From an uncultured Clostridia bacterium (GTDB lineage Bacteria > Bacillota > Clostridia > Christensenellales > Pumilibacteraceae), in assembly GCA_947175195.1 (NCBI GenBank), contig CAMWLQ010000010.1:1-48523 (forward strand): DNA of 48,523 bases, written 5' to 3'. A program made the position numbers and the translations under genes. The notes under the pieces were generated by a model. The model made no database searches. It was given only the letters and a program-made list of their open reading frames with translations, and had not been told where the DNA came from. This document shows positions 3,375 to 11,275 of the stretch, piece after piece. Each line of letters begins with the position of its first letter. Position 1 is the stretch's first letter.

Positions 3375-6080
3375 CTAATTATGTTTTAGCTTAAATTTTC
3401 TATTTAATATTGCTGCATCTTCTCTATTGAACATAAAATGCATGCCTTCAAGTATCTTCTTTTCGGTTTCAGCCGACCAATATATCTTTAATTTATTTTT
3501 TGCTCTGGTAATCGCCGTGTAGAAAATATTATGAGAGATAAGCTCGCCCACCTCATCGGTAATAACAATTTTAACTGAATCGTATTCCAATCCTTGCGCC
3601 TTATGAATAGAAACAGCGTGTGCGATTTTAAATGGTATAATATCGCCAATTCCTCTATCATCATCATCTTTATTGACAAATTTCCCGACATAAAAGCTTA
3701 TGACGGATTTATTGTCATGAATAGGCGTTTCAAGACTGAGTGAATAGCCATCAACATCTAAACTATTAAGAGCCTTATCTACTTCTATAGTGAACTTTAT
3801 TTGTTTTTCCTCTTCCTGAATACCAACTATTGTTCCTTTGAGGTTATTATATAACAGTTCTCCAAAACGATCTGTTTCAATAAAAATTATTGGGTCGCCC
3901 ACTCTATACCGTTCAAAATTATACTCAACAACTTTCCCATTGAGTCCTTCTTGTAAAAAATGATTTATGTTATTTATGCCATATAATCCATCATAATTAA
4001 GGCATAATACAATTTCATCTTCACATTCCTGCTTTTCAAAAATAGTTTCAGATAACGGAGAACAATAATGATGGCTTTCAAGAAGAGCTTGCATATTCCC
4101 ATCTAGCTTTCTAACGGACTCCCAAAGTTTTTTAAGGTGTGTATCAGTGCTACGATGAACATATGTTAATTCGCATATTGCGGATTTTGGCACAAACTCT
4201 TTAGCAATTGAGAACCAATTGCCAAATTTTATAGACTCAATTTGATAAATATCGCCTACTAAAATCAGTAATTTAAAAGTAACATTATCCAAAATTTTTG
4301 CCATATCAGCATTACTAATCGTACTACATTCATCTATGATAAGAATATCGCAGTCTTGACGTTCATTGTTAATACATTTTTTCACAGTTTTAAACTGATT
4401 GGCATCTCCCTTAACAATTCTTTTCAAATTATCAACAGCGGTATGCGTATTTGCCAAGTATAAACGTCTTTTACTAGCAAAAAAAGCTGAAATATGTTTT
4501 ATCATTGTCGATTTTCCAGTACCGGCAGAGCCATAAATCAAAGCAACTTTTGAGCTTTCAAACATATTCTCCAGCAATTGTTTCTTTTCAGGAGAATCAA
4601 TGCTATACCCACTTTCACTAAGCCATGATTGAACGGAAGCGCGATATCCTACAATGCCTTCTTTTGTCAAATCTATTATTTCATGCACAATTTTTACTGT
4701 ATTTGACTCATACCCTTTGATAAATGCAAATCCGTTTTCTAAGAAAATACAACTTTCGGGGCGGTGCTTATAATAAACGTTTTCATTATATATATCAATA
4801 TGCTTTGGAATATCTTTGAATTTTTCTAATTCAACAATCGGAGTATAAAGCTTAGCATTAATCTCTGTATTGTTTTTTAAATAACGACCTAAAAACTCGT
4901 GCACGCGGTTAGTTGCGTCAATACAATTCAACAAATCGTATAATCGAGTTGAATGTTTAAATAAGTCATTTGCAAACGGCATTACATCGAATGGAATGCA
5001 GCCATACTTTAAATACAATCCGGACAATCTATTATTTTGAAAAATACTATACTGATCTCTCAACACAGAGTTGTTTAACCGATAAAGCAAATATGTTAGA
5101 ACATTACTTCCTGGTTGATCTTTAAACTCTCGACACTTTTGTAATCCAATAAATACAGGAGTGGATTTCGCGCCATTACAAATACGACTCTGAATATCAT
5201 AAAATTTTTCATCACGCATATAAAGAAACTCTGTTAAATTCATACCTGTATCAGTAAGATAAGACATTAGACTGCGATATTCGAGATTCGATGTAGATAC
5301 ATTTGTAATATATCCAAAAAGCCTATTAAAATTATCAAATTCACAGGGACGCACCGAAACGAAAAATGCAACAATCACGGTGATTTCCATTGAGTGGTTT
5401 ATAACTTCAATTTTCGATTTTCTAAACTCCAAATGTACAGCGTAATAGTCAGGTATATTCAACTTGCTGAAAGCAATAATACGATCTGTTTTTTGAGCAA
5501 AACTATAAACGCTAGAGAGCGTCAGTTCATAATAAGTTTCACCTTTATATCTAAAAGGTTTCTTCTTATATATGTAAAAACGATCAGTAGGACTTCTTGT
5601 TATTTTATGTGTCTGAATTCGTTCTAAAACTTCGGCTATTTTTCTATGATATTCTGCAAGTGCTTGCTCATTCTCCAGCTCCAATTCGTCCAAGTTATGC
5701 AACACATCCAAGTCGAACTCTTTTTTAACGAATGATCTGCATGTATACATTAATTCCAGGTATTGCCACATCATACGTGATGATGCCTCTGGATCCATTG
5801 TAGAATGAGACGCAGTTACTTGAAGTGAATTATGAAAACGCCTTAAAAACGTAAGACTGTCGCGTGATTTAATATAGCGCAAAGCCTTTTGTTTTTCTTC
5901 ATAAGTTACTTCCGTTTGGCAAGTTAAGCTATAAATCTTTAGTGCAATAGCTTCAACAAAATTTCGAAGTTGGGAAATGACATTTTGGGATAAGAGTTTT
6001 ATTCCTAAGGCCTCTTTCTTCGCAATATTATCGCATATTACTTGATTAACGCTTAATATTTCCCTATCAAACTCATTCAT
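3375..6080 (-). CDS. SF1 (RecD/UvrD-like) helicase with large novel N-terminal region
   Basis: The protein has about 901 residues. The ATG at 6080 is preferred because GGAGAG sits 7 bases upstream; an in-frame ATG at 6095 overlaps that element. The C-terminal ~400 residues are an SF1B helicase: Walker A GSAGTGKST near residue 515, Walker B LIIDECS near 583, motif III LVGDIYQI near 610, then SIHKAQGLEYD near 828 and YTAITRAKNKL near 860. These resemble RecD2/UvrD_C_2 proteins. The first ~500 residues match no family I recognise and show no obvious nuclease motif. It lies 66 bases downstream of the KAP-like ATPase on the same strand, so the two are probably co-transcribed. The base composition is clearly A+T richer than the housekeeping genes to the right, suggesting transfer. 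ATPase/helicase activity is well supported; a role in phage or plasmid defence is inference from context. Confidence 0.9.
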   Translation of the reverse strand: MNEFDREILSVNQVICDNIAKKEALGIKLLSQNVISQLRNFVEAIALKIYSLTCQTEVTYEEKQKALRYIKSRDSLTFLRRFHNSLQVTASHSTMDPEASSRMMWQYLELMYTCRSFVKKEFDLDVLHNLDELELENEQALAEYHRKIAEVLERIQTHKITRSPTDRFYIYKKKPFRYKGETYYELTLSSVYSFAQKTDRIIAFSKLNIPDYYAVHLEFRKSKIEVINHSMEITVIVAFFVSVRPCEFDNFNRLFGYITNVSTSNLEYRSLMSYLTDTGMNLTEFLYMRDEKFYDIQSRICNGAKSTPVFIGLQKCREFKDQPGSNVLTYLLYRLNNSVLRDQYSIFQNNRLSGLYLKYGCIPFDVMPFANDLFKHSTRLYDLLNCIDATNRVHEFLGRYLKNNTEINAKLYTPIVELEKFKDIPKHIDIYNENVYYKHRPESCIFLENGFAFIKGYESNTVKIVHEIIDLTKEGIVGYRASVQSWLSESGYSIDSPEKKQLLENMFESSKVALIYGSAGTGKSTMIKHISAFFASKRRLYLANTHTAVDNLKRIVKGDANQFKTVKKCINNERQDCDILIIDECSTISNADMAKILDNVTFKLLILVGDIYQIESIKFGNWFSIAKEFVPKSAICELTYVHRSTDTHLKKLWESVRKLDGNMQALLESHHYCSPLSETIFEKQECEDEIVLCLNYDGLYGINNINHFLQEGLNGKVVEYNFERYRVGDPIIFIETDRFGELLYNNLKGTIVGIQEEEKQIKFTIEVDKALNSLDVDGYSLSLETPIHDNKSVISFYVGKFVNKDDDDRGIGDIIPFKIAHAVSIHKAQGLEYDSVKIVITDEVGELISHNIFYTAITRAKNKLKIYWSAETEKKILEGMHFMFNREDAAILNRKFKLKHN

Positions 6081-6146
6081 TTGTATTCTCTCCATAAATT
6101 AATCATTAAATGTGTTGTATTGAACAACATCATAGGACACTGATGA

Positions 6147-9100
6147 CTACGCACTCCTATAATATATTTTTTCTTTTCTCTGGTTGCAATCACAGATTCC
6201 ATTTTCTTTCATAAAGTGTGCAATCAATCTATTGCACCCATTATTTTCAACCGTCATTCTTTCGCCTTCTTTTATGAGTTTAGAGTAATCTTCTCCTATC
6301 GAGCTAAAGTACTCTCTATATTTCGCCAAATTGTTTATTTTGTTTTGCTTTATAGCAAGTGCCAACAACTGTAATTTTAATGTTGATTCTAGATTGACGT
6401 CAATAAACTTGTATAGCATATCCTCACCAATAGCACAGCTGTTAACAACAATAAACTCTGCTATCTTCAATTCGATTCCAGTTATGTCAACATCACTACC
6501 ATACAATTCTAAAAATTCTTTTTTGAATCTCAAACTTAATAACTGCTCATCTATTATATTCTCACATGTCGTGTTCTTAAATTGCCTTACTCCAAAAAAA
6601 TCTTTCATCTGTCCTAAAATATTATCTTGATAACAAGCCAAATACGGCAAAATGCTTGGAGGATTTGTAAGAAATTGCATATCCCCAATATTAAATTCAA
6701 ATAGACCAGCCAAAATAAACTGCTTAATATTCTTACATTTACCGTATATGCCGTTCATCTTAAATCTACAATCAATACATTTTGCCAAATTGCCAAATAT
6801 AGCTTCATCAAATGACAACTCAATAAGTGTGTTAAATAACTCTGTTTGAAGCACACTGTCAATTGAAGAATATGATCCATCGATATTCCCTAAATTCAGC
6901 GATATGAATTCAGCTAATGCCCCTTCCACGCCTACTGTTTTGTATGCCGTAGCAACATTGTCCCATCGCGCTTCTATTTTATTCCCATTAAGAATCGCTG
7001 AATATAGTTGAGTGTCAATCGAATCAAAGTCTTTCAGTTTAAATTCGGTATGCTCAATAATATTTACTTTATTTTCCACACTGATTTGCTCATTGGATAA
7101 TAATTCTCGAATAATATACTCATCCTCATTTGATAACGGTAATTTAAGATATATCTGTTCAATATAGTTATTTATATCGTTCTCAATACGGCTTACAAGA
7201 CAATCTTTACCACTATTTCGAATAAATGAATAATTCTTACTTGAAAACTCAACAGCATCATCGTCTTTAACATCTAATACGATTTGTAAGTTCGGAATAT
7301 TCATCTGGTAATAATTGCCACGCACAATATAATCAAACAATTTATCCCTACCGTTACTTAAATCTATTACCTCAAATTTAAGATCGACATCGTTAATTAG
7401 TGCAGGAATGAAAAAATGTTCGGGCCAGCTAAATAACGATGAATAATTCGAATGCATTTCTATATACCGCTTTAGTTGGTCGGACTTTAAAACTTCATAT
7501 TTACTATAATTGATTAAAGCACTAATAAAAATATCTTTATCATTATCGCAAATATTCGCTTCAAATAAATTCTCTACTAACTGACCAGCGTATATCGCAA
7601 TATTATCGGCAAAAATGGACTTTTCACTATCATTAGTTAATGCTAAAAATTCCTTTACCGCATTAACAACATTCTTTTTACCGGATGCTAATAAACGCAT
7701 TATTGCATCAAACTTATGTGTCTTTATCTCCTCTTTAACGTCAAGTTCTTTTACTAAGTTTAATGAATTTAATACATCTTTAATTAGGATTGCCGATTGC
7801 GAAAAATCTTCTTCATTTAAACTTTTAATTACACTTGTAATATCATCGAGTCTATATGAGTAAGACTGTAAATAACCTCTCTTCACATTACGAATAAATT
7901 CCATGTCTTTAACAGTTATTTCAGAACAATAATTAGAAATGTATTCTAAATAGTCTTCCCCAATATATCTTTTATTTATAAGCATTCTTATAAAAGCAAA
8001 TTGCAATAATAAAACTTTTTCTTCACACGTTCGTGACAATGAATCCTCTGTTGCTCTTTCCTCTTCGCCCACTATTTCCTCCACATATTTATCTAAAATA
8101 TCCCTAACGTTTTCGTCTGAAAAATATATATCTATTCCCATCCTATCAATAAGATTAGAGAAAGTATCATTTTCTTCACTTTCAATTGTTTGTTTAATAA
8201 AATTGATTTTATAATCTATATCAACAATACGCTTTGCACCTTTTCCTTTTATTATCTGCTCTCGTTCATAGTATGTTTCACCACTAGGTAACTTTTGTAC
8301 AGCAACAGAATAGCCAGAATGCATGGGATGATCTAAAGTATTGACACCTTTAAAGCTCTCTAAATTATCAATTAAAACATTAGAATGTCCATAAATGGTG
8401 GGATACTTGCAATGCTGTCCTTTAAAAAGCAGTTTCAGTTCTGCAAAATTATTCAGAGCTTCTTTTTTTATTCTATCTTTCTCCGCCTCTAACTCTTTAA
8501 TATCATCTTTTTTTGTCTGAACAAACTGCGCAACTAATCTGTTCTTATCAATGCATAAAGGAATCAATCCTTCATTATGTTGAAGTCTTGCATAATCATA
8601 TGGATATAAGTTTTTATAAAGTGCCAATGCAAAAAGGTTCTCATGCCTTTTATTCAAACGTTTCTCTGTATTTTCAGAGAGTTTATGTGTCATCATAATA
8701 TAGTCATTAAAAGCATTTTTCAACACTCTCATGTCATCTACATAATAAGAAATATCTTTAATAAACTGTTCAGATAATCGCAATGACACATCTTTCTTTG
8801 TCAATTTATCATTTATAGAGCGTATCTGATCAGCCGTCGTTATAGGATTTATGATTGGTATAACCGGAAGAATAAACTCAAAAAATTTTGCACGCTGATT
8901 TTCATCCTTAAACATTGTATCCTTCACAGCATAAACGAACGTCACTTTCTCTGCTTTTCTCGGACTATTATTTATTATTGTATTTAATTCTCTTAGCTTA
9001 ACAAATATCTTTAAACTTTCAAATCTATCCAAATCCTCGAATATTATCAAATCTACATTTATACACTCAAAGAAGTACAACACTTCATCAATAAATTTAT

Positions 9101-9758
9101 TAATTAAGGATACATCGCCTTGCGGTTTACCGTCTTTATCTAAACTGACTTCAAGATCTTTGTATTTTATCTTTCGCAACTTACCTGTATATAACAAGCT
9201 GATAATAAGAAATACAACCGAAATAGTCGTTAAAGCAGTTAAAATTGAACTAGTGTATTTCCAATACCCAAAAAAGCTATTTCCACTAGTTTCAAATATT
9301 AAAGCAACGGCTGCAAATATTAAAACCACAGACCAAAATGAATACCATAAGAGCGTCCTAATACGTGTCTTATTAGTCCTGTTCAATGTCGAATTGGGTA
9401 ACTTATGTTTCTTTTGATTGTATAGCAACTGTTGCAATATACTTCTTTCTATTGCATTTTCTTTATATTCGCTCTGCGATTGTTCTCCGTCCTGATTAAA
9501 ATCTGCCAATGAAATCTGAACATATTTTGGCTTTCTGATTCCAGACTTTCTATATCGTTTAATGTACGTAGTGATAGCACTGCTTTTTCCCGCACCGTAT
9601 GGCGCTACAACAGCAATGTTATTTACTCCCTTCTTTCTAATTTGAGCATCTAAAACCTGTGCCTCTACACCATAGTCATCACTTTCAACCGGCGCGTTGT
9701 CTAATAACATATCACAATCAATATGTTTTTCACTCACAACCTTATCTTTTGATTTCAT
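6147..9758 (-). CDS. giant KAP/YobI-like membrane-anchored P-loop ATPase
   Basis: The protein has 1203 residues, starting at an ATG preceded by AAGGAG. Walker A is APYGAGKSS (residues 52-60). Two hydrophobic segments (about 137-155 and 168-190) lie between Walker A and Walker B, and Walker B is LIIFEDLDRF (about 237-246), followed by VTFVYAVKD near 272-280. A P-loop domain interrupted by a transmembrane hairpin is the hallmark of KAP NTPases, and the FEDLDRF motif and ~1200-residue size suggest the YobI-like branch. The remaining ~850 residues are mostly helical, without catalytic motifs I recognise, and could be a sensor or scaffold. From family knowledge KAP ATPases are membrane-associated and recur in bacterial conflict systems (for example QatA). 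It is the first gene of the likely operon with the SF1 helicase. Domain assignment is strong; biological role is inferred. Confidence 0.88.
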   Translation of the reverse strand: MKSKDKVVSEKHIDCDMLLDNAPVESDDYGVEAQVLDAQIRKKGVNNIAVVAPYGAGKSSAITTYIKRYRKSGIRKPKYVQISLADFNQDGEQSQSEYKENAIERSILQQLLYNQKKHKLPNSTLNRTNKTRIRTLLWYSFWSVVLIFAAVALIFETSGNSFFGYWKYTSSILTALTTISVVFLIISLLYTGKLRKIKYKDLEVSLDKDGKPQGDVSLINKFIDEVLYFFECINVDLIIFEDLDRFESLKIFVKLRELNTIINNSPRKAEKVTFVYAVKDTMFKDENQRAKFFEFILPVIPIINPITTADQIRSINDKLTKKDVSLRLSEQFIKDISYYVDDMRVLKNAFNDYIMMTHKLSENTEKRLNKRHENLFALALYKNLYPYDYARLQHNEGLIPLCIDKNRLVAQFVQTKKDDIKELEAEKDRIKKEALNNFAELKLLFKGQHCKYPTIYGHSNVLIDNLESFKGVNTLDHPMHSGYSVAVQKLPSGETYYEREQIIKGKGAKRIVDIDYKINFIKQTIESEENDTFSNLIDRMGIDIYFSDENVRDILDKYVEEIVGEEERATEDSLSRTCEEKVLLLQFAFIRMLINKRYIGEDYLEYISNYCSEITVKDMEFIRNVKRGYLQSYSYRLDDITSVIKSLNEEDFSQSAILIKDVLNSLNLVKELDVKEEIKTHKFDAIMRLLASGKKNVVNAVKEFLALTNDSEKSIFADNIAIYAGQLVENLFEANICDNDKDIFISALINYSKYEVLKSDQLKRYIEMHSNYSSLFSWPEHFFIPALINDVDLKFEVIDLSNGRDKLFDYIVRGNYYQMNIPNLQIVLDVKDDDAVEFSSKNYSFIRNSGKDCLVSRIENDINNYIEQIYLKLPLSNEDEYIIRELLSNEQISVENKVNIIEHTEFKLKDFDSIDTQLYSAILNGNKIEARWDNVATAYKTVGVEGALAEFISLNLGNIDGSYSSIDSVLQTELFNTLIELSFDEAIFGNLAKCIDCRFKMNGIYGKCKNIKQFILAGLFEFNIGDMQFLTNPPSILPYLACYQDNILGQMKDFFGVRQFKNTTCENIIDEQLLSLRFKKEFLELYGSDVDITGIELKIAEFIVVNSCAIGEDMLYKFIDVNLESTLKLQLLALAIKQNKINNLAKYREYFSSIGEDYSKLIKEGERMTVENNGCNRLIAHFMKENGICDCNQRKEKIYYRSA

Positions 9759-10011
9759 CTAAAATATCTCCTTATACCTTATATTAATTATACATATTAA
9801 ATCAGTTATTTTTTTCCAATGGCAACACTATTGTATAGCTTTTTTATAACTAACACTATAATAACTTTTAAAAAATTATACCAAAAAATGATATATTTTG
9901 CAATAGAAACTATATCTTGTTAACTATTATAGCAATCATTCAACAGTCCGTTTTTGATATAATCATATAATGTTTTTTCGTGTAATTACGGATAAATAGT
10001 CCGTCATTCAA

Positions 10012-10348: not shown

Positions 10349-11275
10349 ATGGCAAGGGCGCGCAAAAGGAATGATTACAAATATTTATTTAACATTCTAT
10401 TCGCAATAGAATTTTTCGGCATGGCTGTATCCATGATAATTCTATTAGCAATAGAATCGCCGGATTCATCCGACAATACTTATTTTACCGTATTCTTTAC
10501 GCTATTCTTTACCGCAATCTTCATAACGGCATACGTTCAAGAACTGATTACACACCGCAAGCTAACCGATATAATTTACTATTCGTTTATATTTTTAGGC
10601 AGCCTGATATTCTTTTTGCTGTTTTATTTTTTAAGCAACGTCTTCACTTTTACGCTCGTCATATATTCCGCGGCGATGATGTGCTGGACATTTTTCAGAT
10701 GCGTAATATACTTGCGCACAACACGTGACTTTTCGTCAATCGACGGCGACGTCGATGATAAAAAGCCCGCTCTCGTTACTATGGTTTTGCTGATTTTAGT
10801 GATGACAAAAATGCTTAACGTGAATTTTGCAAGCCAAATATTTATGGCATGGTCGTTCATCCCCGCGGCAATCATAAGTGCTGTTATCTTATTAGTCGTT
10901 TACGCTTTATTACGCAAAACATTACCGCCCGAAATAAAAGCCAAGCGAGTATCTACTTGGAATTGTATATTAATTGCAATCATCATATTTTTTGCATCGT
11001 TCTTTTACTGTTTCACAACGGTCGGCATTGCTAACTGCGTGTTCGACAACAAAGGTCCCACCCCTATTGAATGCACGGTACTCGAGAAAAAAGTTTTTTC
11101 GGGTCGCTCAAAGTCCTACGAAATAAAGATAAACATAAACAATAAAACGGAATGGATCAAAGTATCGTCGCACGAATATTATTACGAAATTGCCAAAGGT
11201 GATACAATAACCGTTAATTATTATTCGGGCGCGCTCGGCATCGAATACTATTTGTACGAGGAACAAAACTCATAA
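10349..11275 (+). CDS. polytopic membrane protein of unknown function
   Basis: The 308-residue protein starts at an ATG preceded by GGGGTG with good spacing. It has about six or seven hydrophobic segments (roughly 13-37, 45-68, 75-97, 98-118, 140-160, 165-188 and 203-228), followed by a ~75-residue soluble C-terminal part that looks like a small beta-rich domain (SYEIKININNKTEWIKV, then KGDTITVNYYSG), somewhat like DUF3592-type extracytoplasmic domains. I do not recognise a specific family and see no catalytic motif. It runs toward the ABC permease gene on the opposite strand with only five bases between the two stops and no terminator in between. It is the only plus-strand gene in the left third of the window and is not obviously part of the helicase/ATPase cassette. 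Confidence 0.75.
   Translation: MARARKRNDYKYLFNILFAIEFFGMAVSMIILLAIESPDSSDNTYFTVFFTLFFTAIFITAYVQELITHRKLTDIIYYSFIFLGSLIFFLLFYFLSNVFTFTLVIYSAAMMCWTFFRCVIYLRTTRDFSSIDGDVDDKKPALVTMVLLILVMTKMLNVNFASQIFMAWSFIPAAIISAVILLVVYALLRKTLPPEIKAKRVSTWNCILIAIIIFFASFFYCFTTVGIANCVFDNKGPTPIECTVLEKKVFSGRSKSYEIKININNKTEWIKVSSHEYYYEIAKGDTITVNYYSGALGIEYYLYEEQNS

Follow-up and report, generated by a model that had tools for sequence, protein, structure and literature searches.

Some of the multi-gene defence systems Qat, Gabija, Zorya, Druantia and BREX contain a KAP ATPase or a helicase of superfamily 1 or 2 (SF1/SF2), and embedded defences are reportedly described in a preprint by Payne et al. (2024). The window considered here is a whole contig of 48,523 bases from an uncultured Clostridia bacterium. 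Near one of its ends lie two large genes, back to back, that code for a KAP/YobI-like ATPase related to the defence protein Tmn and for a RecD2-like helicase of the candidate family PDC-S53. The original prediction had taken the pair as a candidate new defence system. The analysis points with fairly high confidence to a stacked defence island at this end of the window, in which two separate single-gene modules happen to be neighbours. The island is an ordinary one: one of its two proteins diverges within a known family, and the other fits well into a candidate family that is uncharacterised.

According to PMC11846954, Tmn belongs to the KAP NTPases, has two transmembrane domains and acts against several phages, its mechanism being unexplored. 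The ATPase of the window matches the Pfam family YobI-ATPase (PF20693) with 317.5 bits over residues 34-399 (cut-off 27), and in PADLOC it matches nothing but Tmn up to E 1, with 225.6 bits in two stretches, the best covering residues 33-441. A Walker A motif (GAGKSS, with K58) and an acidic strand (FEDLDR) flank hydrophobic segments at about 133-163 and 168-194, which agrees with the membrane hairpin predicted inside the P-loop domain. The protein resembles Tmn in this KAP/YobI domain, in the internal hairpin, in length and in a similarity that extends over about 900 residues: the alignment with a reference full-length Tmn, a plasmid protein, shows 23% identity over 1012 columns, with blastp similarity up to residue 935. 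On the other hand, its C-terminal part is divergent, and the reference protein reaches 737 bits over 13-1275 with the PADLOC profile. Four other YobI-type proteins reach 256-295 bits against that profile. Compared with the YobI-ATPase family, the domain lies far above the cut-off and the NTPase motifs and overall layout are kept in ten aligned relatives, but identity to these is only 20-26% and the nearest relative seen (L141) is 32% identical. PF20693 matches occur in one of 14 control genomes, that of Bacillus subtilis. A viral search with the window ATPase sequence alone retrieved no relative, and one with the alignment retrieved 19 loci. Literature searches returned only plant papers for YobI with helicase and defence, and none for YobI ATPase with Bacillus subtilis and phage.

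The helicase matches the PADLOC family PDC-S53 with 1123 bits, far above all else, and residues 6-904 cover positions 1-897 of the 900 in the profile. Nothing tested differs from this catalogue entry, which is a single-gene candidate. PMC12988326 describes PDCs as putative candidates found by 'guilt by embedding', most of which, in the core set, await experimental validation. PDC-S53 is not named in any paper of the literature searched, and the main text of the DefensePredictor paper (PMC13092281) gave no match to the terms looked for. As far as the searched papers show, PDC-S53 is a widespread, uncharacterised helicase. Each gene is already catalogued singly (PDC-S53 for the helicase; PF20693/Tmn-like for the ATPase), which counts against the claim of a new pair.

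The RecD-like SF1 assignment was borne out, and K528 is the Walker A residue of the helicase. In a confident structure model, the predicted fold of residues 332-904 superposes on RecD2, with which it shares the SF1B helicase fold. Residues 1-330, however, have no counterpart in the superposition, and the match to the NCBIfam RecD2 equivalog (TIGR01448) reaches 113.7 bits against a cut-off of 500, so that the protein was rejected as RecD2 proper. The first 500 residues or so had been said to resemble nothing; this holds for approximately residues 1-330 and fails from 332 onward. Residues 1-330 contain invariant polar residues across relatives and match no family or solved sequence in the Pfam and structure-sequence searches made, in which a profile of them found two solved sequences at chance level (E 0.22 and 1.9). 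The positions that do not vary are H97, R107, Y112, Y174, K177, E190, K202, R205, Y218, R249, C251 and E252. Their fold was barely probed by structural comparison, because the helicase core fills the match list. A HEPN (DUF4145-like) nature of this part was considered and rejected, and is left as an idea: the profile-profile comparison with 17 of the 18 DUF4145 stretches (L167 was left out for its stops) reached a probability of 1.5%, which tops the values of the five controls (0.2-1.0%) and is far from significant. DUF4145 was not among the best 25 of 33 Pfam families for 37 helicase N-terminal sequences.

The PADLOC matches agree with the original statement that the locus is neither Qat nor Gabija. 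As Gabija the pair was rejected, since the helicase matches GajB with at most 23.1 bits, and partially, and its neighbour matches Tmn only and not GajA. In Qat the KAP ATPase QatA accompanies QueC-like and TatD-like genes, whereas the window ATPase has Tmn as its only PADLOC match; in this comparison the island is cut and the window genes were scanned in part (nine proteins in the PADLOC scan).

The evidence that separates the two genes comes mainly from adjacency counts. A scan of the collection confirmed 107 helicase relatives, the best 80 of which were kept as loci. A relative of the window ATPase (tblastn) occurs in one of these 80 loci, L079, and the PDC-S53 helicase occurs in none of the 28 other ATPase loci (nine genome or plasmid loci and 19 viral contigs, with flanks that reach 7-10 kb at most and less where a contig ends). 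On these counts the pair was rejected as a dedicated system, and the claim of a candidate new system falls with it, rare adjacency having been named in the original prediction as grounds for refutation. The 'helicase' beside the plasmid Tmn of L112 (465 aa, 2.7 kb off, on the other strand) was also considered; it is not PDC-S53 (23.9 bits).

In a family search of whole genomes, a YobI-ATPase was found in 8 of the 80 helicase-bearing ones at E 1e-10, one match being weak, and seven pass 1e-20. In six of the seven genomes other than that of L079 the match lies on a contig of other length or coordinates than that of the helicase, and in the seventh (L045) the entire contig of the helicase lacks an ATPase. 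Among 398 genomes of the phylum, the window's own included, the helicase (E 1e-60) and the YobI-ATPase (E 1e-20) occur in five each. Both are present in two, the window's genome and G245, where they lie on separate contigs. Two of the five helicase copies are broken or fragmentary (L005/L007 in G377; L006 in G136). On a FastTree tree of 105 helicases, which is weak in its deep branches and unsure for several long rows, the nearest to the window are L008 (60%) and L069 (55%); neither locus contains an ATPase relative, and L079 lies far away.

The helicase has other recurrent neighbours, among them type I restriction (hsd) genes. Labelled with BLAST seeds from the loci, not by a family search locus by locus, hsd genes are present somewhere in 21 of the 80 loci. 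In 12 of the 21 such a gene lies directly beside the helicase on the same strand, a count that ignores a 60-codon frame in L073 and includes a 123-codon HsdS piece in L042; the type I genes of L019 and the hsd set of L066 are on the strand opposite to the helicase. The gene orders, in which other genes sometimes intervene, are R-M-S-helicase (L015, L055), M-S-helicase-R (L040, L047), R-helicase-M-S (L031) and M-S-R-helicase (L034); the helicase also lies within or at the end of type I operons in L018, L063, L087 and others. An HsdS domain (Pfam) is found in 9 of 42 close upstream neighbours, from which a 43rd, the broken helicase piece of L027 itself, was excluded. For background, 40 of the helicase genomes contain 67 N6_Mtase matches in 114.7 Mb; at that density 0.41 would fall in the 0.70 Mb that their loci span, against an HsdM label (BLAST) in nine of these 40 loci. 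Among 29 ATPase loci, taken as a rough control, one has hsd genes. Since genes for defence tend to lie together anyway, some of the excess around the helicase is to be anticipated. Defence genes are also known to settle inside type I operons: DarTG2, a different system, is embedded between hsdS and hsdR according to PMC12255303.

The restriction-modification (R-M) label is hardly clustered on the helicase tree. It requires 17 changes, at least 15 of them forced by starred branches, against a shuffled mean of 19.5, and 31 of 500 shuffles are as low. Eighteen of the loci, all but L019, L066 and the short L087, bear the label on the tree, and with L020, judged by eye, and the viral L114 and L119 they make up its 21 rows; the viral L115 and L131 also have hsd matches and were left unlabelled. 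The link between R-M genes and the helicase was consequently gained or lost repeatedly. In the genome of the window, which is 95.7% complete, there is no N6_Mtase match, so that the organism probably lacks a type I system. Further upstream-neighbour domains (Pfam) are SIR2 and AAA_13 (2/42 each) and McrBC and GmrSD (1/42 each), and the helicase neighbourhoods are rich in restriction and abortive-infection families. The upstream neighbour in L024 is TIR-like (PADLOC spbK 84.9 bits; Pfam TIR_2 just below cut-off). The helicase of L024 is closely related to those of L020 and L028, and all three are followed by the same 179-aa gene and preceded by unlike genes, HsdS-like by eye in L020 and L028; the hosts are an Oscillospiraceae, a Clostridia and a Bacteroides genome.

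A second setting of the helicase is a phage-borne cassette. Twenty-eight viral contigs with the helicase were found, one of them too short to read. One kind of upstream partner gene lies 6-56 bases from the helicase in 16 of the 27 readable contigs (among L113-L139), as well as in the phages phi1605 and TPDSL_ph1 and in locus L086; the cassette was also noted in L096 and L097. Some members are near-copies (L130 of phi1605, L138 of L086). A C-terminal domain of about 130 residues is common to the partner proteins, which have at least two kinds of N-terminal part, one in L120 and L127 and the other in the remaining members. The second kind has two divergent forms, which match each other with 56.6% probability (E 1e-4) and the first kind with 0.4%; both forms, with one representative each, match the first 140 positions of the PADLOC LmuA model. 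Opposite to the R-M pattern, the phage-partner label needs two changes on the helicase tree (17 rows, without the split L132 and L134). The constant C-terminal domain was found in the phage family and L086/L138, plus two marginal matches, and is absent from the window, in a search of the window and all loci fetched by then. The phage partner therefore does not explain the window's pair.

An alternative to the two-module reading is that the ATPase and the helicase form a dedicated two-gene system of a narrow lineage, in which the NTPase would anchor, or be triggered by, a phage-DNA-feeding helicase. Several points favour it and weigh against the stack of separate modules. The true start of the helicase is probably an ATG at 6080, which lies 15 bases within the frame as listed; a GGAGAG motif stands just before this ATG, and the relatives align from about this position. 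The gap to the co-directional ATPase gene is hence approximately 66 bases, no terminator-like site was called in it on their strand, and the two genes probably share a transcript. L079 carries both genes in the same order, with the ATPase 721 bases upstream of the helicase. The samples also call for caution: several of the viral ATPase loci are near-copies of one prophage by gene layout, so that the 28 do not count as independent; of the 634 plasmid records with an ATPase match, two (H1 and H16) were examined; and the helicase loci are often cut by contig ends, with an upstream gene of at least 150 aa in 73 of 80. In addition, the YobI-ATPase is commoner in helicase-bearing genomes (8/80) than in the phylum sample (4/397 at 1e-20, without the window's genome), the two sets differing in make-up. 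On the other hand, the adjacency counts are those given above, the window and L079 are not sisters on the helicase tree, their ATPases are only about 25% identical, and the nearest helicase relatives have no ATPase in their loci. A dedicated pair is for these reasons unlikely, although a narrow lineage keeps some probability, since no close relative of the window ATPase was found (best L141, 32%). Joint action in the window is possible because of the probable shared transcript, L079 being its one support among relatives. The proposed sensing or trapping of DNA at the membrane by both proteins, for which adjacency and the probable shared transcript are the only support, was not upheld.

Other explanations concern the helicase itself. 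It could be a passenger that upgrades restriction or abortive systems and here serves the downstream HKD+SNF2 and XRE genes instead of the ATPase. Its place in type I R-M operons of many genomes and the HKD+SNF2 gene downstream on the same strand would agree with this, but the XRE and SNF2 genes are set off from it by a 119-base gap, the SNF2 gene is cut by the contig end, and SNF2 matches, weak and partial, occur in only L076 and L084 of 84 scanned helicase loci (the 80, two repeats and two extra genomes). The passenger role in the window is accordingly quite improbable. That the helicase is a RecD2-type housekeeping helicase, or one that maintains mobile elements, with no role in defence, is very improbable. 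A RecD2-like core and copies on plasmids and phages speak for it; however, the distribution in the phylum is patchy, with two of the five copies damaged, the score lies far below the RecD2 cut-off, and the neighbours are rich in restriction and abortive-infection families, the helicase being placed beside or within hsd genes. A broader and rather doubtful proposal is that PDC-S53 acts in bacterial immunity as a 'plug-in' DNA motor of general use. Its 330-residue N-terminal module would bring an invariant polar site, and the helicase would be joined repeatedly to varied partners (type I restriction enzymes, phage-borne proteins with a constant, putative docking domain and at least two kinds of N-terminal part, TIR-like or SIR2 proteins and, here, a Tmn-like ATPase), the partner giving recognition or killing and the helicase delivering it to foreign DNA.

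If the two modules are separate, as preferred here, we infer their activities from analogy and family knowledge. Like Tmn, the ATPase would block phage growth from the inner membrane after infection is sensed. The helicase would be a RecD2-like 5'-3' motor, most likely loading on single-stranded or broken phage DNA. As it moves along the DNA, its conserved 330-residue N-terminal part would then act as sensor or effector, and foreign DNA would be processed or marked; direction, substrate and outcome follow the family. The occurrence of the family in type I operons and phage cassettes would suit a helper that processes DNA in general and changes its partners. A likely false lead is in this way removed, since the pair, plausible as a new two-gene system, now looks like two catalogued genes that are stacked, and the recurrent settings of PDC-S53 (type I restriction operons and the phage cassette with a two-part partner) show which pairs to test.

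The features at this end of the window are collected in Table 1; both large genes have the positions and lengths first proposed for them, and the XRE regulator and the additional helicase expected in the island are present.

Table 1. Features of the island and its border in the window.
Feature	Coordinates	Strand	Description and evidence
YobI/Tmn-type KAP P-loop NTPase, 1203 aa	6147..9758	-	Transmembrane hairpin within NTPase domain, long C-terminal region; Pfam, PADLOC, hydropathy, motifs
PDC-S53 helicase, 906 aa	3375..6095	-	N-terminal ~1-330 of no assigned family, then predicted RecD2-like SF1B helicase 332-904
Small Cro/C1-type (XRE) regulator, 70 aa	3043..3255	-	Pfam HTH_26, 66.5 bits
HKD+SNF2 helicase gene, cut by contig end	2..2995	-	PADLOC C3a139 'HKD+Snf2', 360 bits; Pfam SNF2-rel_dom and Helicase_C
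Promoter-like site (extended -10) upstream of ATPase	9875..9903	-	Consensus match only, 10/12 positions
308-aa membrane protein adjoining island	10349-11275	opposite to island	No family over cut-off

The genes are A+T-rich, as had been noted. With a GC content of 0.29-0.34 in 1-kb bins, the stretch of 3-10 kb is the most A+T-rich part of the window; the remaining bins have 0.40-0.58, apart from those at 10-11 kb (0.367) and 47-48 kb (0.344). Because the window is a whole contig, the island is incomplete on the helicase side. The cut SNF2 protein also gives weaker, generic PADLOC matches to the BrxH and ZorD helicases. The region contains 51 promoter-like sites, where chance alone would give 41.6.

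The direct neighbours of the window ATPase are the helicase and the membrane protein of no family. An all-against-all comparison of ten ATPase loci gave recombinase-type genes as the clear recurrent neighbours; the 19 viral loci were compared with seed proteins only. In L079, L103 and L110 the YobI-type ATPases stand behind a tandem of related proteins, and those of L079 cluster with the upstream gene of L068, which its start and the Pfam tally mark as a resolvase-type recombinase. In L105, 144 bases separate a YobI-type ATPase from the gene upstream of it, which belongs to a type I restriction cluster.

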